A stretch of 64,000 nt of DNA. Origin: Propionispira arboris. Its GTDB lineage: Bacteria > Bacillota > Negativicutes > Selenomonadales > Selenomonadaceae. The stretch is from assembly GCF_900109225.1 (NCBI RefSeq), contig NZ_FNZK01000019.1, positions 1-64,000 on the forward strand, written 5' to 3'. Positions 14,240-25,968 of this stretch are shown here, piece by piece. The notes under the pieces are model-generated. The model saw only the letters and a program-made list of their open reading frames with translations, searched no databases and was not told where the DNA came from. The first letter of the stretch is position 1; every line of letters starts with the position of its first letter. Both the position numbers and the translations under genes were made by a program.

Positions 14240-15961
14240 ATGGATTGGTTTAATAACTTACAAGTTAAACAAAAATTGACGCTTTTAATTGCTGTATTTG
14301 TTTTTGCCATTATTGGTGTCTCATTAGCGAACAACCTAGAATTAAAGCAAAGCAGCTCTCGAATGGATCAGCTTTACACAACGAATGTAAAACAAATTCA
14401 ATTGGCTTATAAGGACAAAGTATTATTACATCAAACCGTAGAAACCATATATGCTTTAATAATTTCAACTGAAGCTAGCGAAAATCAAAGACTCAAAACG
14501 GATCTCGCTGAAATAAGAAAAGAATTAGATGAAAATATTGCAACCTACGAAAAGCTGCCATTGACAGCAGCACAAGTTAGCGATATAAATGCCCTAAAAG
14601 ATTCTGTACAAAAATACCGTGCTGTTAACAATCAAATAATCGACCTAGCAACACAAAATAAAAATCAAGAAGCATATGCTTTATCTAAAAAAGAAGCAGC
14701 ACCACTATTGAAAAATATTTTAGTTGCTGGAGATAAAATTGCAAATGATTCGGATCAAGGCGCCGCTGAAATGAATGAATTCGGTAAGACCGAAATAGTA
14801 AAATCAGTATGGACATCTAGTATAATTACCTTAATTGCCATCTTATTAGGTTTAAGTATAGGTATATTAACGGTTAAGCAAATAGGAAACAGATTAAAAA
14901 CGACTGTAAATTTCTTGACACATCTTGCTGATGGAAATTTTTCAAATAATATTTCAGAAAAAAGCCTGCTAGATAGAAGCGAATTTGGTATATTATCTCA
15001 GTCCGTGGATAAAATGACTCGTAACATAAGAAAATTAATTCAACAAATTTTAGCTGCGGCTGAACAAATGGCTTCTTCTTCGCAACAACTCACAGCAAGT
15101 GCAGAACAATCTTCTCAGGCGGCTACACAGGTAGCAGAATCAACGACGCATGTAGCTGATAGTAGTACGAAACAACTCAAACTTATTGAACATACAGCTT
15201 CGGTTGTTAGTGAAATGATTCAGGGGATTAATACGGTAACTAAAAATATACAGACAGTCAATGACTCTGGTAAAAGAACTTCTGATACAGCACTTGAAGG
15301 AACAAAGGCTATTAAAACAACGATAGAACAAATGGCACGTATTGGTGAAAAAACTGAAAATGCTGCAGAAGTCATTCATGCTTTAAGTCAGTATTCGAAA
15401 GAGATTGATAAAATCATAGGTATAATTTCCTCTATCGCCGATCAAACAAACCTTTTAGCTTTAAATGCCGCTATAGAAGCAGCACGAGCTGGCGATGCTG
15501 GACGAGGCTTTTCTGTTGTTGCCGAAGAAGTCAGAAAATTAGCAGAACAATCTGCTCAATCTACAAAAGAAATTGTAGATTTAATAAAAAATGTTCAAAT
15601 AAACACAGAAAAAGCTGTTTCATATATGAATGAAAATAAAAAAGAGGTTCAATCTGGCGAGGATTTTGCTAATAGTGCAGGCGATAAATTTAACAATATC
15701 TTTACTATGATTACAGAAATAGGAAATGGCATCGAAGAAATTACAGCTTCAACGACTCAATTGGATGCTGGAACAAAGCGTGTTGTTGAATCATCAAACA
15801 ATATAGATAAAGAATCCCGTAAAGCCGCTAGTGAAACACAGACAATTTCAGCGGCAACAGAAGAGCAATCTGCTTCAATGGAAGAAATCGCTAGTGCAAG
15901 CACACATTTAGCAAAAATGGCGGAAGACTTGCAAACTATTGTACGCAAATTTAAAGTGTAA
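14240..15961 (+). CDS. Methyl-accepting chemotaxis protein with four-helix-bundle sensor
   Basis: 573 aa. Membrane segment 1 is at about 13-31 and segment 2 at about 190-211, enclosing a 4HB_MCP-like extracytoplasmic helical sensor. A HAMP domain follows (about 212-265), then a long signalling coiled coil with the conserved hairpin tip [20 protein letters not shown] and [18 protein letters not shown]. It would sense a ligand at the cell surface and signal to CheA/CheW, whose genes are not in this window. GGAGG lies upstream of the ATG. A close paralogue, cut after the second membrane segment, is at 23221-23856. Confidence 0.95.
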
Positions 15962-16100: not shown

Positions 16101-16234
16101 TGTCTGCAATTAAATAGAATTTTTTTATCCGCCTGCTTCTCGTTATCATGAATCTTTGTAACTTCATATTCTTTTTAAAAAAGGGATGTTCTTACAATAA
16201 AGAGAATATATAGTTCTAAAAGGTGGTGATATCA

Positions 16235-17740
16235 TTGCGCATCTTTCATAAATTTGCACTCTTACTTATCATATTAATGCTCAGCAGTACGTTACTTCAA
16301 TTTATACTTTTCGATAAATTTGTTATGTCAAATCTTGATGATCTAATACTATCTATCAATGAACGGGCTGCAAAAAATTTTGCCGTACAACTTTCTTCCG
16401 CCTTGGAAAATATTGAATATACCTTAAAAAAAACTGCAAATACCCCTGCTATTTGGCAAAATCAAAAAGAATTAGATCTTATGAATGAGATAACACCAAA
16501 TATAACCGTCATGGCAGTTTTAGATTTACAGGGGAATTTCATTAGAATTAGTGGAATACCCGATCTCCCCACCGTCAATCTAGCAAAACGAGATTTTTTT
16601 CAGGCAGCCCTTCAAGGTGAAACCTCCATTACCGACGTCTATATCAATACGGCTGGTTATCAAATCATCGCCATCGCAACACCTATTTTGCAAGATGGCA
16701 TAATTACAGGTGTGCTTATCGGTTCAATTCGTATCCATGAAAATAGTTTCCCCTTGGTTTTTGACAATACGATTTTTGGTCGTGATGGTTATATATCCGT
16801 TATTGACAAACAGGGTACTATTCTTTATCATCATCTAGCAGAACGAATCGGACAAAAATCATCTATATTTTCAATAATTTCAGATCAAAATGGTGCGCTA
16901 ATTCATACCAACCCTTTCGGGCAAGAAAATTACGTAGGTTATAGCAAGGTTCCAACATTAGACTGGCTGGTTACCGTCAATCTTCCTACTTCTGAATTAA
17001 CTGGATTTCGTCAATTATTATTTTATCAAAATATGATATCAGCTCTTATTATCACAATTGTATTGATCACGATTGCAATCTATACAATTCGTCGGGTCAC
17101 GGACCCTATTGAGCGTTTAATTTCAGCATTCGCATTAATCCGTCAGGGAAAATACAAAGAAATTAATACAATGGACTATGCCGGAGAATTTCATGAAATG
17201 ATTCATGCTTACAATTCAACGATATCCATACTGCAAAAACTGCATATTTCACTAAAAGAAAAATCGGAATTAGATAGTTTAACCAAAGCGTATAATCGCC
17301 GTGCTTTTGACAGGTTAGCTAAAAAACTGGATCAAGAAATCCAAGCCCATGCAGTAGACCAAATTGTTGTAATGATTTTAGATCTTGATTTTTTCAAAGA
17401 ACTAAATAACTCGCAGGGGCATGCAAGCGGAGATGATACCTTGCAAAATTTCACTGAACTATGCCAAGCTGTAGCCGGAATTAAGTCCGTCTTTCGTTTT
17501 GGTGGTGATGAATTTACGATTATTCTACGAAATATCTCTCTAAAAGAAGCTCAGCATACTGCCGAAGAAATTCGGTCACTGTGCCAAAAAGCACTAGCTC
17601 CATGTACAACTAGTATTGGAATTGCAAGCTATCCTGAAAATGCTGCTACAATAAGAGATTTACTACTCGCAGCCGATAAAGCCTTGTACATCAGCAAAAA
17701 AAATAGAAACAGCATTACCATGGCTGATACACAAGCTTGA
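16235..17740 (+). CDS. Membrane diguanylate cyclase with dCACHE sensor
   Basis: About 501 aa. N-terminal membrane segment (about 8-27), an extracytoplasmic Cache-type sensor (about 45-270), a second membrane segment (about 275-295), a HAMP-like linker with RRVTDPIERL, and a C-terminal GGDEF domain with canonical RFGGDEF and DLDFFKELN. It makes c-di-GMP from two GTP. No RxxD inhibitory site is obvious five residues before the motif. A TTG at 16235 has AAGGTGGTG at ideal distance; GTGs at 16223 and 16226 lie inside that binding site. It converges on the multicopper oxidase gene with only three bases between stops. A c-di-GMP riboswitch lies 2 kb away. Confidence 0.93.
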   Translation: MRIFHKFALLLIILMLSSTLLQFILFDKFVMSNLDDLILSINERAAKNFAVQLSSALENIEYTLKKTANTPAIWQNQKELDLMNEITPNITVMAVLDLQGNFIRISGIPDLPTVNLAKRDFFQAALQGETSITDVYINTAGYQIIAIATPILQDGIITGVLIGSIRIHENSFPLVFDNTIFGRDGYISVIDKQGTILYHHLAERIGQKSSIFSIISDQNGALIHTNPFGQENYVGYSKVPTLDWLVTVNLPTSELTGFRQLLFYQNMISALIITIVLITIAIYTIRRVTDPIERLISAFALIRQGKYKEINTMDYAGEFHEMIHAYNSTISILQKLHISLKEKSELDSLTKAYNRRAFDRLAKKLDQEIQAHAVDQIVVMILDLDFFKELNNSQGHASGDDTLQNFTELCQAVAGIKSVFRFGGDEFTIILRNISLKEAQHTAEEIRSLCQKALAPCTTSIGIASYPENAATIRDLLLAADKALYISKKNRNSITMADTQA

Positions 17741-17743
17741 TTA

Positions 17744-19213
17744 TTATTCAATCTTTATCTGCGCCATCATTCCATTATCTTCATGTTCTAAAATATGGCA
17801 ATGATACATAAATATCCCTTTTTCTATAAACATAACCTCAAGTTTCACTCGCTCATCAGGATTAATGGCAACTGTATCTTTCCAGCCTCTTTCATTCGCC
17901 GCTGGAGATATTCCATTGCGTGAAATGATTCTAAACTGAGTTCCATGAATATGAAATGGATGAACCATTCCCCCCATCATATCTTTTTGATTATAAATTT
18001 CCCATATTTCTCGCTTTCCAACTGTTCCATAGGCATCTATCCGATGTTCATTAAATTTTTCTTGGTTTATCTCAACCATTCCGGCCATTCCAGATAAAAC
18101 GATTTTTCTATCAATCATTGAGAAATCATTTATTTCTGGCAATTGATTCAATACTATAGGCATTGTGTTTTTCGTATCTTTGCGTTCTCCTATCTGCATC
18201 TTCAATACCGCTATATCACCAGTCATCAGACTTAAAACATCACCATTTTTATACATCTTATCTGTGTTTATTATAACTTCTGCACGTTCCCCTGGTGAAA
18301 GCGAAAGTGCCTGCATTTCTACAGGACTATTAAGCAATCCACCATCTGTAGCAATTTGTTTAAATGTGCTGTTGTCACTCAGACTAAAGGTATAAATTCT
18401 AGCATTCGATCCATTTAGCAAGCGCAATCTTACTTCATTCGTTGTAACATCAATATAAGGATTAATCGTTCCATTGACAAGAAGCGTATTTCCTGCAGTT
18501 CCGTCTGCTCTATAGTCTTTCTCATAATCAAATTGGTTTGTATCAGTAAACGTGCGATCTTGAACGACTACCGGTATATCGTCAATTCCATACTTTTCGG
18601 GCAAACCAAGCTTCGATTCATTTTCATCTTTTACAATCAAGATACCAGCAAGACCTAAATAGACCTGCTCAGCTGTCTTTCCTATTACGTGTGGATGATA
18701 CCATAATGTAGCAGCCTCTTGGTTTACATGAAATGCAATTGTTGTTTGTTTTCCTGCATCAATCGGACTATGGGGACCACCATCCATATCTGATGGCACG
18801 ATAAGTCCATGCCAATGAAATGTCGTCTGTTCATTATTTAAATGATTAATCAAGTTTATCTGTATATTCTGACCTTTTTTAACTACAATTGTTGGTCCAA
18901 GAAAACTTCCATTATATCCCATCGTTTTTGTCTTTTCACCATCTTTAAATTGTACAGCACCGTTCTCCGCAGTCAAAGAATAAACGATATCTCCACTACT
19001 ATTCATTTCTCCTTTTATTATAGGTGGTATATTTAAATATCCCTGTTCTCCCGTTTTATTTTCAAGCTTTGCTATACTGTCGTGCATCCCTTCCATCATA
19101 TGATTCGATGATCCATTCATTCTCATCCGGCCAAAAAAACTCATATAAATGAATAAAGCTCCAATCAATATGCCAATAGTAATCGCAAGAATAATCATAG
19201 ATCTTTTTTTCAT
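17744..19213 (-). CDS. Membrane-anchored multicopper oxidase
   Basis: 489 aa. An N-terminal hydrophobic segment (about 6-26) anchors or exports it. Three cupredoxin domains follow with all copper motifs: TFHWHGL, LWYHPHV, HPFHIHG and MYHCHILEHEDNGMM, supplying the trinuclear cluster and type 1 site. A Met/His-rich stretch (SSNHMMEGMH) follows the anchor, as in CueO-like enzymes. The family oxidises Cu(I), other metals or phenols with O2. It is odd company if the host is a strict anaerobe; oxygen or copper defence is the likely role (inference). The upstream region carries no further gene for 700 bases. Confidence 0.92.
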   Translation of the reverse strand: MKKRSMIILAITIGILIGALFIYMSFFGRMRMNGSSNHMMEGMHDSIAKLENKTGEQGYLNIPPIIKGEMNSSGDIVYSLTAENGAVQFKDGEKTKTMGYNGSFLGPTIVVKKGQNIQINLINHLNNEQTTFHWHGLIVPSDMDGGPHSPIDAGKQTTIAFHVNQEAATLWYHPHVIGKTAEQVYLGLAGILIVKDENESKLGLPEKYGIDDIPVVVQDRTFTDTNQFDYEKDYRADGTAGNTLLVNGTINPYIDVTTNEVRLRLLNGSNARIYTFSLSDNSTFKQIATDGGLLNSPVEMQALSLSPGERAEVIINTDKMYKNGDVLSLMTGDIAVLKMQIGERKDTKNTMPIVLNQLPEINDFSMIDRKIVLSGMAGMVEINQEKFNEHRIDAYGTVGKREIWEIYNQKDMMGGMVHPFHIHGTQFRIISRNGISPAANERGWKDTVAINPDERVKLEVMFIEKGIFMYHCHILEHEDNGMMAQIKIE

Positions 19214-19608
19214 ACGTTCTCCCCCTCATATAAAATATAATAATTTGTACATGATCTGTGCATTTTTATTAGCCTAAAACACCAGCTAATTTTCTGTTTC
19301 ACCATGTTTTTAGTATATAGCTTTTAAGAACGTAAAATAGACGACTAATACCAATCTATCTATCGGCTTACTCGTCTTACAAAAGCAAAATATAACAAAA
19401 TTTGTTCATACTTAAAGTATTTCAATGTAAGTTTTATTCAAAAAGAATTAACTACTCTGTAAGTATACGTCTTACCTCTTATTATTTCAATAAAAACTTC
19501 ATCAAAAAGAATGACGGATTATATTTGATGAACTCTTGTTGTTTTGGTTAGCGTGAATGTCAATGGCAAGTATGTGTTTCGTCGACTAATCTACTGCTTA
19601 ACTTATGA

Positions 19609-19637
19609 TTGCAATTTCACAAAAAATAATATATTAT
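19609..19637 (+). promoter_or_regulatory. Probable sigma-A promoter of the c-di-GMP riboswitch transcript
   Basis: TTGCAA (19609-19614) and TATTAT (19632-19637) are separated by 17 bases, placing the start near 19645, about 55-60 nt before the aptamer. The upstream 400 bases (19214-19608) contain no other feature that I can support. Confidence 0.55.
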
Positions 19638-19699
19638 AATTTAATGAATAGAAATAATGATTAAAGCTCTGAAATATTTTTCTTTTAAAAATTTTGTAT

Positions 19700-19834
19700 T
19701 ATATATTGGCAAACTTGTTGAAAAACAAGGGCGCAAAACTATGGGTCTAAAGAAGTATTCCATGACTGCCAGGTTGCATAAGCGAATCGTGTATAAAATA
19801 TACCGATATCCTATGTACTGGCAGTATTTTTTTT
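19700..19834 (+). promoter_or_regulatory. c-di-GMP-I (GEMM) riboswitch with overlapping terminator
   Basis: The aptamer shows the GEMM signature in order: GGCAAAC (19708-19714), stem CTTGTT-GAAA-AACAAG (19714-19729) with the GAAA tetraloop, GGGCGCAAAACTATGGGTC (19729-19747), and ATGACTGCCAGGTTGC (19762-19777). ACTGCCAG (19765-19772), part of the aptamer's 3' side, also pairs exactly with CTGGCAGT (19818-19825), which is followed by T8 (19827-19834). An inner ATCG.GTATA/TATACCGAT hairpin closes the long terminator. Because the terminator takes aptamer bases, c-di-GMP binding should block termination and turn the downstream gene on (inference from the pairing). Confidence 0.93.
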
Positions 19835-19928
19835 GTAAGAAGAAAATAAATGTATACGAAAAAAATCGGTGAGCGATGTACGCACATTTAAAGTATAAAA
19901 ATATTAACTGTAGAAATGGTTGTTAAAT

Positions 19929-20276
19929 ATGATTGAATTCTATCTTTCTTTTAATTTTAAAGAAGGCGGCGACAAGCATCCGCCCAAAATTGCTAATACA
20001 ATACGAAAATGTCTGTTTGACAATCAGATTATAACATCTGGAAGACAGTTTCATCTTTACGTAGATGCAGAAAGACATAATCTTGACAAGAATAAAAATT
20101 GTCAAACTAAAGGATGCTTAACTAAATCAGTTCGCATGAACTTCTTATGTAAAGTTGATACAGATCCTGATTTGCCTCCTTATGAATTAACTCTTCTCAA
20201 TTTATTACTAGAACCTGCTTTTAAAATTTTAAGCAAACAATGTGGACTGGATAATTTTAAAATAAGGAAAATATAA
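19929..20276 (+). CDS. Unrecognised 115-aa protein under c-di-GMP riboswitch control
   Basis: The only open frame downstream of the GEMM riboswitch, starting about 95 bases after its terminator T-run. The ATG at 19929 has no strong ribosome binding site; a TTG at 19920 is in frame. The protein is soluble, with no signal peptide or membrane segment. It is lysine-rich with several cysteines (CLF, CQTKGC, FLC, QCGL) that could bind metal or form disulfides. I do not recognise the family. The riboswitch implies it is made when c-di-GMP is high. Next to it lies the 3' end of a convergent MFS transporter gene. Confidence 0.6.
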   Translation: MIEFYLSFNFKEGGDKHPPKIANTIRKCLFDNQIITSGRQFHLYVDAERHNLDKNKNCQTKGCLTKSVRMNFLCKVDTDPDLPPYELTLLNLLLEPAFKILSKQCGLDNFKIRKI

Positions 20277-20386: not shown

Positions 20387-21664
20387 TCAAATATAATTTT
20401 TTTCATTTGCTCGCTTCTCCTTATCATGAATCCAACTAAAAAGCTCTTGGCGTTCACAAATAAATACGACACCCAATAATCCCAATGCTGCTATTCCACA
20501 TAAGGGAAATCCCCATACTCCACCCAGATATTCCATCGCAGTTCCTGCATAAAAATTTCCCACAGGCGTAGATCCCTGATTAAGAAAAGAATATACACTC
20601 ATGACCCTGCCACGATGTTCATCATCAGAATTTAATTGAAAAATCGAATTTCCCATATTCATAAAAGCTAAATTCAAAAAACCGATACAGGCAACACAAA
20701 GAAAGGCTGCATTATAATCTGCAACAAAGACCATAAAAACTTGTAAAAGTGCGGTTGTACATAAACAAAGCAGAAAAAATCTTTTTTCTACCCCTTTTTC
20801 GGCACGAAAAGCCATAAAAATTGCACCAATAAATGCACCAATTCCAGCTGCGCTCATCAAACCAGTATAAGCCGCCGCCCCCATACCTAGTACACTTTTG
20901 GCAAAAACAGGGATAATAACTGCATTATTCATTGCAAAGGTACAAATAATTGCCATAAATATTATATTGATCATCAACGCTTTACTCTGTTTAATATAGG
21001 ATAAGCCTTCTTTCACTTCTTTGATAACCTTTTGTTTTTTCCGTATAATCTGCTGCGGTAAAACATTAATATAAAACAAACTTAATAATACTGCAAAAAA
21101 GCTAATGGCGTTGATCGAAAAACAATACACTGTTCCAAAGTTCACCATCACAATTCCCGATAAAGCAGGCCCAATAATCTTTGCCAAATTCACAATTGTC
21201 GAGTTGAGTGACACGGCATTCATAATATCCCCCCTGCCAACGAGTTCAATAAAAAAAGACTGGCGTGCCGGCATATCAAAGGTTTGTGTTAATCCTAAAA
21301 AAATGCTAAGCAACAGAATATGCCAATATTGGAGCATATTAAGATAAGCTAAAAGAGTTAAAGCAATCGCTTGAATCATCAAAGCAGATTGCGTCATCAA
21401 CAAAATATTTCGTTTTGAAAAGCGATCGACCAGAGCTCCCGCAAATAAAGTAAAAAGAAGGATCGGTGTAAATTGACAAACCCCAACCATTCCTACCATA
21501 AAAGGTGAATTCGTCATCGTATAAACAAGCCAGACCTGTGCTGTTCGCTGCATCCAGGTACCAATCAAGGATATACATTGTCCAAACCAAAAATAGCGGA
21601 ATTCTTTATGCTTCAAAGAAGAAAAAACTCTTTGCAAAATTGGAATTAATTTATTTTTTAGCAA
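20387..21664 (-). CDS. MFS transporter (MFS_3/EntS-like efflux family)
   Basis: 425 aa with about twelve membrane segments. The N-terminal pattern FRYFWFGQCISLIGTWMQRTAQVWLVY and FTLFAGALVDRFSKRNILL, plus FDMPARQSFFIELVGR, are those of the MFS_3 family that includes enterobactin exporter EntS and macrolide or drug efflux proteins. The substrate is unknown. Its upstream neighbour on the same strand is a separate DUF4405 gene ended by its own terminator. Confidence 0.88.
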   Translation of the reverse strand: MLKNKLIPILQRVFSSLKHKEFRYFWFGQCISLIGTWMQRTAQVWLVYTMTNSPFMVGMVGVCQFTPILLFTLFAGALVDRFSKRNILLMTQSALMIQAIALTLLAYLNMLQYWHILLLSIFLGLTQTFDMPARQSFFIELVGRGDIMNAVSLNSTIVNLAKIIGPALSGIVMVNFGTVYCFSINAISFFAVLLSLFYINVLPQQIIRKKQKVIKEVKEGLSYIKQSKALMINIIFMAIICTFAMNNAVIIPVFAKSVLGMGAAAYTGLMSAAGIGAFIGAIFMAFRAEKGVEKRFFLLCLCTTALLQVFMVFVADYNAAFLCVACIGFLNLAFMNMGNSIFQLNSDDEHRGRVMSVYSFLNQGSTPVGNFYAGTAMEYLGGVWGFPLCGIAALGLLGVVFICERQELFSWIHDKEKRANEKNYI

Positions 21665-22870: not shown

Positions 22871-23220
22871 CTTTTTGCCATTCTTTCATGCCGTAAATGG
22901 CATGAAAAAAACCGTCTAAAACGGTAAGCGGGTTCTTTTCAAATCAATAATTTAGAGGAGAACAAACTCAACCACACATCAACTGTTTCTTTGTTTATAG
23001 TATAATACAAAAATATAATTCACAGCAATATTTAACTTTTTATCCTGCAATACAAAATAATATTGCTACACGATATAGTGAGAGATGAAAAAATAATTCG
23101 GAGAAAAATAAATTATAGTGATGTATTTCATCTTTTTTTCAATAAGATTGCATATAATAAATTTAAAGCGATATGGCCTAGAAGGAATGTGTTTCTAAAA
23201 TCAAGGAGGTCCTTATCCAG
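22871..23220. other. 350-bp intergenic region with two hairpins
   Basis: Holds a 9-bp hairpin at the 5' end of the DUF3781 gene (TTTCATGCC, GGCATGAAA, near 22886-22909), a small ACCGT/ACGGT hairpin, and the leader of the truncated chemoreceptor gene. No further gene is seen. Confidence 0.5.
23083..23139 (+). terminator. Leader terminator/attenuator before the truncated chemoreceptor gene
   Basis: AGATGAAA (23083-23090) pairs with TTTCATCT (23126-23133), running into T7; an inner ATAATT/AATTAT pair extends the stem. It lies about 80 bases before the start codon, so it could attenuate transcription of that gene. Confidence 0.5.
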
Positions 23221-23856
23221 ATGAAAGGGTTTAAACAGTTACAAGCTAAGCAAAAACTGACGCTTTTAATTACTGTATTTATTTTTTCTATTATCGGTGT
23301 ATCGATAACAGGAAATTTGGCTGTAAAGCAAGGTAGTGCTCGAATGGATCAACTTTTCACCATAAATATGAAGCAAATGCAATCCGCTTATAAAAGCAAG
23401 GTATTATTACATGAAACTGTAGAAGATGTATATAGTTTAATGCTTACGACCGAAGACAGCGAAAATCAAAAGCTCAAAAACGATCTCATTGTAAAAAGAA
23501 AAGAGCTGGATGAAAATTTTTCAGCCTATGAGCAGCTATCATTAACAGCAACACAAATTAACGAAATGAACGCTTTGAAAGATGCTTTGCAGCAACTCCG
23601 CACTGCCGACAATCATATAATAGACCTGGCAACACAAAACAAGAAACAAGAATCATATGCGTTATATCAGAAAGAAACAGTACCTTTATTTAAGAACGTT
23701 CTGTCCGCTTTGGATAAGATTGCAAACGATTCTAATCAAGCTGCCACGGAAATGAATGAACTTAGCAAGACCGAAATGGTTAAATCTGTATGGACATCTA
23801 TTATAATCACCTTAATTGCCACTTTATTAGGTGTAAATTGGTATATTAACTCTTAA
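23221..23856 (+). CDS. Sensor-only truncated chemoreceptor (4HB domain without HAMP or signalling domain)
   Basis: 211 aa. It is strikingly similar to residues 1-210 of the chemoreceptor at 14240: same KQKLTLLI membrane segment, RMDQL sensor start, LATQNK and KIANDS near the sensor end, and TEMVKSVWTSIIITLIATLLG as the second membrane segment. It then stops after NWYINS, with no HAMP and no signalling coiled coil. It has a good AAGGAGG binding site and its own terminator, so it looks expressed. It may heterodimerise with full-length receptors or be a young pseudogene. Confidence 0.75.
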   Translation: MKGFKQLQAKQKLTLLITVFIFSIIGVSITGNLAVKQGSARMDQLFTINMKQMQSAYKSKVLLHETVEDVYSLMLTTEDSENQKLKNDLIVKRKELDENFSAYEQLSLTATQINEMNALKDALQQLRTADNHIIDLATQNKKQESYALYQKETVPLFKNVLSALDKIANDSNQAATEMNELSKTEMVKSVWTSIIITLIATLLGVNWYINS

Positions 23857-23912: not shown

Positions 23913-24059
23913 CATTAAAAGAAATAAGTAACCACAATTTTCCTCCTATATTTGGTAGATTTAGAAACAATTTTGGTGTATAATCACAGCACAGGTTTCA
24001 TTTTTCTTATGCTAATCATATCATCAATTTTTATAAGCTCAAAAGAAAGAAGGTATTAA

Positions 24060-24578
24060 ATGAAACGAATATTTCCTTTTGTTATAATATTTATGGTAAT
24101 TTTAAGCAGTCTTTGTTTTGCCAATCAATATGATGATCATCCCGACAAGTATATAAAAATCGACTCTGGTGCAGACTTTAATACTTATCTGGATAAAACC
24201 TCTATCAAATCCGTAAAATATGCCCCACCCTACTACACGATTCAATGTGATAATATCGAATTTGATCAAGCTGACGGTATTACGGCTAAAACCACAGTAA
24301 TATACTATTATGACTTCAATACAAAAAGCATACAGTTACAAATCCCTCAAAACATTGCCCATACAGAAGATGGCAGCATTTCATACAACTCCATTCGTGA
24401 TGAACCTCCAGTTCACGTTGATCCTTCTAGTTTGTCATTTAAAGAGTCCATTATGTTATTTAAACAATTGTATGGTGAAAAATATGCAAATACATTTCTT
24501 AATGCTCCAAGGAATAAAGCAGAGACCAATTCAAATATAGATAATAAGAACGATCTCCCACTTGGTGAAATAGTATAG
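24060..24578 (+). CDS. Secreted protein of unknown function
   Basis: 172 aa with a clear signal peptide (MKRIFPFVIIFMVILSSLCFA, cleavage near residue 21) and a soluble remainder. I do not recognise a domain with confidence; the pattern of a YIKIDSG start and aromatic-rich beta strands resembles small surface proteins of unknown function. AAGAAGG precedes the ATG. The PAS-GGDEF gene follows 85 bases later and might share its transcript. Confidence 0.65.
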   Translation: MKRIFPFVIIFMVILSSLCFANQYDDHPDKYIKIDSGADFNTYLDKTSIKSVKYAPPYYTIQCDNIEFDQADGITAKTTVIYYYDFNTKSIQLQIPQNIAHTEDGSISYNSIRDEPPVHVDPSSLSFKESIMLFKQLYGEKYANTFLNAPRNKAETNSNIDNKNDLPLGEIV

Positions 24579-24663
24579 GTCCTCTCAAAAAATAATCTAA
24601 AACAATGAAACAGCAGCCTTGGCAAATTCTACACAAAACTTATTCCAGGGAGGATAGAGCATT

Positions 24664-25968
24664 TTGAAACGAAAACATTTTTTATTAAAAAACTTTTTCA
24701 AAGCAGAACCATTTTTCATACTGAATAACATTTCTGCTTATGTTGCCTATATTGATGCCATTACTTTGCGCTATAAATTTGTTAATAATGCATTTATTAA
24801 AGCTTATAATATCTCAAGAGAACAAATTATAGGTAAACATATGAATGAAATACTTTCAGAAAATAACTATCAAAATGCCATCAAATACATTTCAATCGTA
24901 AAAAAAGGAAAAATTGCCACATATGAATATTACTTTAATATGCATATTGGAAAGCGTTGGATTAAGGTAGAATATATACCTGAATTTGACATAAATAAAA
25001 AAGTTTGTTCTTTTATTGTTCTTGGATCTGATATTACCGATCGCAAAATAGCCGAAGAAAAATTGCAAAAAAGCGAAGCTCGTTACCGTTTTATGGTTGA
25101 GACTGCCAATGAAGGAATTCTAATTACTGGGCACGATTTGAAAATTATATTTGTTAATAATAAATTAGCATCTATGCTTGGCTATGAAATCAAAGAATTG
25201 ATGGGACAACGTTTTAAAGATTTATTATTTGAAGAACATTTGGAAGATCTGAAAAGAAAAATATTGGAAAGAATACAAGGAAAAGATGCAACCTACGATC
25301 AATATTTACGAAAAAAAGATGGTTCTAAACATTGGGTAACTATTTCTGTAAAAGCAATGATGGATAACAAAAACAATTATATGGGCTCCTTTATCATGCT
25401 GACCGATATTCATGCGAGAAAAATGCTTGAAGAACAATTAAAAGCCGCCATAAAAAAGCTTGAAGTATTAAGTAATGTTGATGGATTGACCGATCTGGCA
25501 AATCGACGATATTTTGATAATATAGTATCTTTAGAATACGATAAATTAGCAAAACATGGAGAGCTATTATCTTTTATTATGATTGATATTGATTTTTTCA
25601 AGGGTTTAAATGACTATTATGGGCATTTGGTTGGAGACGATTGCCTGAAACAAGTTGCAAAGGCTTTAGCTGGAAGTGTTTCCGATCCCACCCAGCTCAT
25701 TGCGCGCTATGGCGGTGAGGAATTTATTTGTATGTTACCAAGAACAAATGAGAAGGACGCCGAAACCCTTGCTGAGAAAATGCGAATTGCAGTTGAAAAT
25801 CTTCATATCTCTAACAAAGGGTCTAAAATTTCAACATATCTTACTGTCAGTCTAGGCATTGTAACTATGCAGTGTTCCCCTGAACAAGAAGTAATAGAGC
25901 TTATTAATCATGCAGATAAGGCACTTTATCGTGCGAAATCTACCGGACGTAATAGAGTTTGCACATAA
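24664..25968 (+). CDS. Cytoplasmic PAS-PAS diguanylate cyclase
   Basis: 434 aa with no membrane segment. PAS 1 spans about 20-125 (YKFVNNAFIKAYNISREQIIG), PAS 2 about 135-255 (EKLQKSEARYRFMVETANEG), and the GGDEF domain about 270-434 with RYGGEEF, DIDFFKGLND and YGHLVGDDCL. It makes c-di-GMP in response to an internal signal. The start is a TTG with GGGAGG eleven bases upstream. It is the second cyclase in the window and may feed the riboswitch at 19.7 kb. Confidence 0.93.
   Translation: MKRKHFLLKNFFKAEPFFILNNISAYVAYIDAITLRYKFVNNAFIKAYNISREQIIGKHMNEILSENNYQNAIKYISIVKKGKIATYEYYFNMHIGKRWIKVEYIPEFDINKKVCSFIVLGSDITDRKIAEEKLQKSEARYRFMVETANEGILITGHDLKIIFVNNKLASMLGYEIKELMGQRFKDLLFEEHLEDLKRKILERIQGKDATYDQYLRKKDGSKHWVTISVKAMMDNKNNYMGSFIMLTDIHARKMLEEQLKAAIKKLEVLSNVDGLTDLANRRYFDNIVSLEYDKLAKHGELLSFIMIDIDFFKGLNDYYGHLVGDDCLKQVAKALAGSVSDPTQLIARYGGEEFICMLPRTNEKDAETLAEKMRIAVENLHISNKGSKISTYLTVSLGIVTMQCSPEQEVIELINHADKALYRAKSTGRNRVCT

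Follow-up and report, generated by a model that had tools for sequence, protein, structure and literature searches.

A putative class-I c-di-GMP ON switch preceding an orphan gene confined to Propionispira

Class-I c-di-GMP riboswitches (GEMM-I, Rfam RF01051) share a common architecture: an aptamer with c-di-GMP contacts at G20, A47 and C92, a GAAA tetraloop and a C44-G83 interhelical pair, followed by an overlapping intrinsic terminator. An A at position 20 is the mark of cGAMP-type GEMM RNAs, as in Geobacter. The cGAMP subclass is termed GEMM-Ib (PMC6456294), and a further Rfam family, RF03167 (c-di-GMP-I-GGC), carries G at position 47; here the letters GGC are read as residues 20, 47 and 92 from the RF03167 consensus CGCGAA. 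The models of this clan tend toward recognising the same RNAs (PMC9943018). Residue numbers in what follows are those of Vc2 (PMC3764141, PMC4744006).

We describe one such element in the window, the 64,000-nucleotide stretch of Propionispira arboris DNA that was analysed. With a probability of roughly 85%, we read the locus as a canonical class-I c-di-GMP antitermination ON switch placed before a Propionispira-confined gene, the two joined by local rearrangement. This reading is carried by the identity of the aptamer, its contact residues, the overlapping terminator, the coding constraint on the gene, the gene's paralogues and a duplicate locus. The window element shares all the features listed above for RF01051; it differs in a longer terminator arm bearing an inner hairpin, and in its target, an orphan without known function.

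Aptamer and ligand class

The aptamer lies on the forward strand at 19699-19782, identified by Rfam covariance models and by its contact residues. It scores 74.6 bits against RF01051, above the gathering score of 35, and has the whole canonical c-di-GMP contact set: G20 (19708), A47 (19735) and C92 (19777). A48 is likewise present, as are the GAAA tetraloop in P2 (19720-19723) and the C44-G83 pair (19732 and 19768), so that an earlier note's assignment of the DNA to this class, with all its signature elements, is borne out. Judged on these letters, the element is a genuine and ordinary class-I c-di-GMP riboswitch, from which we infer binding of c-di-GMP.

That the aptamer might sense another cyclic dinucleotide, whether cGAMP in the manner of Geobacter GEMM-Ib or the altered ligand of a GGC variant, is suggested by the top cmscan label, RF03167 (64.1 bits against a gathering score of 59; E = 8e-13 for the whole window), but we consider it very improbable. 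The RF01051 bit score is the higher of the two. G20 and C92 match canonical c-di-GMP-I, and at the spot where the RF03167 consensus reads CGCGAA the window reads CGCAAA, with A at 19735 in place of the G47 that the variant class needs; the GGC assignment was rejected on this ground. A near-identical copy on contig C4 of P. raffinosivorans is moreover assigned to RF01051 by the same tool, so the GGC label is not to be read as a different ligand class. GEMM-Ib was rejected in turn, since it needs A20 and the window has G at 19708. Of the 18 GGDEF domains matched in the window's genome, 11 allowed a check of the GHxxGD position, and each of these has Asp; none of those 11 therefore resembles a Hypr cGAMP synthase.

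Both other GEMM-I aptamers of the window's genome have A20 rather than G20, as does one in genome G244. The two lie before a REC-GGDEF gene (G000:C23:39470-39557, L004) and before a Flp-pilus CpaB gene (G000:C33:73824-73908, L006). The cGAMP hint that they give finds no match in the 11 of 18 GGDEF domains accessible to the check, all of which have the canonical Asp. A putative fourth GEMM (G000 C40:48266) was dropped: locus L048 covers the spot and has no GEMM match, its sole Rfam match being a glmS ribozyme elsewhere.

GEMM-I elements were found in five of the 121 family genomes sampled, and the window locus adds one clean c-di-GMP ON switch, as predicted here, for Selenomonadaceae, where the class is thus scarce. 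Leaving out the window locus and its orthologue, seven other distinct loci precede genes for REC-GGDEF proteins (four loci: C23, C4, G006 and G034), a chemoreceptor, CpaB of the Flp pilus and a TPR-like protein (one each). In a folding test the terminator 5' arm is the aptamer 3' strand at six of the seven; at the CpaB locus the automatic cut came too early, and a matching later hairpin is visible by eye.

Terminator and direction of control

A sigma-70-like promoter, TTGCAA-17-TATTAT, occupies 19609-19637 of the forward strand. Its hexamers are identical in three copies, that of the window and those on P. raffinosivorans contigs C20 and C4, and the spacing is also kept in the latter two. The expression platform (19765-19834, forward strand) consists of an intrinsic terminator hairpin at 19765-19825 and a U tract at 19827-19834. 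The hairpin has a folding energy of -25.3 kcal/mol (z = -4.8), and none of 200 shuffles is equally stable. From G79 into the U tract the window terminator spans 67 nt, compared with about 40-50 nt in most relatives.

One strand, ACTGCCAG (19765-19772), is common to the aptamer 3' side and the terminator 5' arm, just as the earlier note had claimed; in the hairpin it pairs with CTGGCAGT (19818-19825). Terminator and aptamer are thus predicted to be mutually exclusive. In stepwise folding, the terminator claims the aptamer strand only once its 3' arm has been made, near 19824. Energies computed with the terminator pairs forbidden disagreed with the stepwise folds and were set aside. Because of the overlap, ligand binding should prevent termination, and the riboswitch should be an ON switch; the read-through logic proposed earlier is supported by both the overlap and the stepwise folds, from which its direction is deduced. 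Without ligand, the aptamer 3' strand would be drawn into the long terminator hairpin and RNA polymerase would halt at the U tract; once c-di-GMP is bound, the strand would be retained in the aptamer, the terminator blocked and the downstream gene, which encodes a 115-aa protein, transcribed.

Aptamer and platform are better conserved than the adjoining DNA. Relative to the diverged C4 copy, identity is 96.9% over 19707-19835 and 75.7% over the adjoining upstream flank, 19598-19706 (Fisher p = 1e-6). The contrast fits constraint on aptamer and terminator; local gene conversion is a less simple source. The riboswitch and 115-aa gene have orthologues on contig C20 of P. raffinosivorans, so that the pairing is kept in two species, both of one genus.

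The orphan gene and its family

The 115-aa gene (19929-20276, forward strand, ATG frame; alternative TTG start at 19920) is the sole gene of its transcription unit, in keeping with the single downstream gene claimed before; the next gene, for an MFS transporter (20387-21664), is on the opposite strand. That the frame is spurious, or the RNA element non-functional, is scarcely credible. Pfam, NCBIfam and PHROGs yield no family passing threshold, and the ribosome-binding site looks weak, as a spurious frame would have it. Every dN/dS value is nevertheless well below 1: 0.08 relative to the P. raffinosivorans orthologue, a figure drawn from four changes only (three synonymous and one non-synonymous), and 0.23-0.42 relative to paralogues. 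Indels in the family alignment are all in-frame and about 60 columns are invariant, while the conservation of aptamer and platform above that of the flank speaks against a non-functional element. The frame is truly coding by these comparative measures, and the earlier worry that it might lack conservation is answered by its dN/dS of 0.08-0.42 and its presence in P. raffinosivorans.

The Shine-Dalgarno region of the window gene, TAGAAATGG, looks weaker than that of the paralogues, which have AGAGGTG just before the ATG, so the gene's output may be low. Its product is a small soluble protein. It had been described as cysteine-containing; most of its cysteines are no family feature, C28 and C74 being the only ones conserved, and the CxxxxC stretch is absent from some paralogues.

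Pfam gave the 115-aa protein no match up to E = 1, and hence no PilZ or other known c-di-GMP effector family; NCBIfam and PHROGs had no family above threshold, and a profile search of PDB sequences returned nothing significant. A structure model built from six sequences (pLDDT 70, pTM 0.59) has a beta-alpha-beta-beta-alpha-beta plait, and we predict with moderate confidence a ferredoxin-like plait; a single-sequence model of a paralogue reached pLDDT 43. Foldseek found no PDB or viral match to the model at E <= 0.001, and a structural second look found common plaits only (Z 8.5). Ferredoxin-like plaits are too common for a function to be drawn from the predicted fold.

Among the genomes searched, the gene appears to be an orphan confined to Propionispira. 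In searches covering 300 genomes from the class and 398 from the phylum, the window's own genome alone yielded matches, and plasmids, phages and viral contigs held no relative. The sole same-genus relative in the search was P. raffinosivorans, whose shared segment is about 96% identical to the window. The window's genome has three intact family members and one fragment, and the paralogues there lack riboswitches. Two P. raffinosivorans copies lie in a cluster with the order 115-aa, nitroreductase-like (a label judged on sequence alone), C_GCAxxG_C_C redox, 172-aa, 115-aa, 188-aa and DUF805.

The earlier note had seen here a direct handle on a new c-di-GMP effector gene. Control of a gene by c-di-GMP is distinct from action of its product in c-di-GMP signalling; the former is probable for the 115-aa gene, presuming ligand binding and expression, and an effector role is not supported. 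No relative was found outside Propionispira in the collections searched, the paralogues have no riboswitch, and behind the sister riboswitch copy stand a cyclase gene and then a broken 115-aa piece. Nor did recurrence behind GEMM elements, suggested as a check, emerge: a whole 115-aa gene follows only the window element and its orthologue, and it is lacking at all seven remaining distinct loci of the family. The protein could conceivably be a genus-specific c-di-GMP output, for example a small ferredoxin-like regulator acting on a partner as c-di-GMP levels increase, acquired through capture of a mobile riboswitch module, although we hold this to be unlikely. If true, GEMM-I elements would be ready-made control cassettes moving between cyclase and non-cyclase genes. 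The orphan would be of importance only if its deletion altered a c-di-GMP-dependent trait.

A second copy and a rearranged neighbourhood

The second riboswitch copy in P. raffinosivorans (G001:C4:102077-102160; L016, L032) has the same promoter hexamers as the window and is 96.9% identical in aptamer and platform, but the gene behind it encodes a REC-GGDEF diguanylate cyclase of 311 aa. Beyond that gene a remnant of the 115-aa gene survives: 56 bp that match its central part (window 20105-20160) at 84% identity. The C4 locus is missing from the window's genome, where parts of its flanks are found on contig C36. Since the second copy drives a cyclase and trails a 115-aa remnant, the riboswitch-115-aa pairing is lineage-specific and shuffled, and the 115-aa gene would have been placed under the riboswitch through local rearrangement. 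Nearly identical yet placed before different genes, the two riboswitches offer a modest natural example of target change.

In one scenario the cyclase took the place of the first half in a riboswitch-115-aa copy; in the other, a single riboswitch originally stood before both genes and each copy went on to lose one of them. The C4 spacer resembles neither the window spacer nor the paralogue leaders better than shuffles do, and the spacers beyond the terminator therefore give no order of events.

These data bear on the possibility, to which we give slightly less than even odds, that the riboswitch was ancestrally that of a REC-GGDEF cyclase and that the 115-aa gene is a rearranged bystander, expressed in response to c-di-GMP and without a role in c-di-GMP physiology. 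The arrangement at C4 favours it, as do the REC-GGDEF genes that follow four of the other seven GEMM-I elements in the family, the lack of riboswitches before paralogues, and a decayed start of a C_GCAxxG_C_C gene at 23053-23115 that points to a rearranged cluster. Against these stand the retention of the pairing in both species and purifying selection on gene and RNA; C4 could equally be derived, through cyclase insertion into a riboswitch-115-aa copy, and the dissimilar spacers leave the order unreadable. Because this possibility concerns the role of the gene and can hold alongside the switch mechanism, our confidences in the two do not total 1. The antitermination ON switch remains our reading of the RNA in either case.

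Two diguanylate cyclase genes (16223-17740 and 24664-25968) and a chemoreceptor gene (14240-15961) lie within 6 kb, all located as the earlier note had described. The surroundings carry several further traces of change. A multicopper oxidase gene region (17755-19580) is missing at the P. raffinosivorans C20 locus. The remnant at 23053-23115 corresponds to the leader and opening codons of the C_GCAxxG_C_C gene beside 115-aa paralogues, which suggests a decayed duplicate of the paralogue cluster. A segment of roughly 600 bp (24054-24650) with a gene for a 172-aa secreted-like protein is missing in the otherwise collinear C20 locus; the nearest relatives of this gene adjoin 115-aa paralogues. At 23221-23856 lies a truncated chemoreceptor comprising the 4HB sensory half only, its DNA 76% identical to the start of the chemoreceptor gene at 14240-15961. 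At the C4 locus, a segment of roughly 350 bp (L032:6572-6923) has about ten partial copies, of 74-90% identity, across the window's genome.
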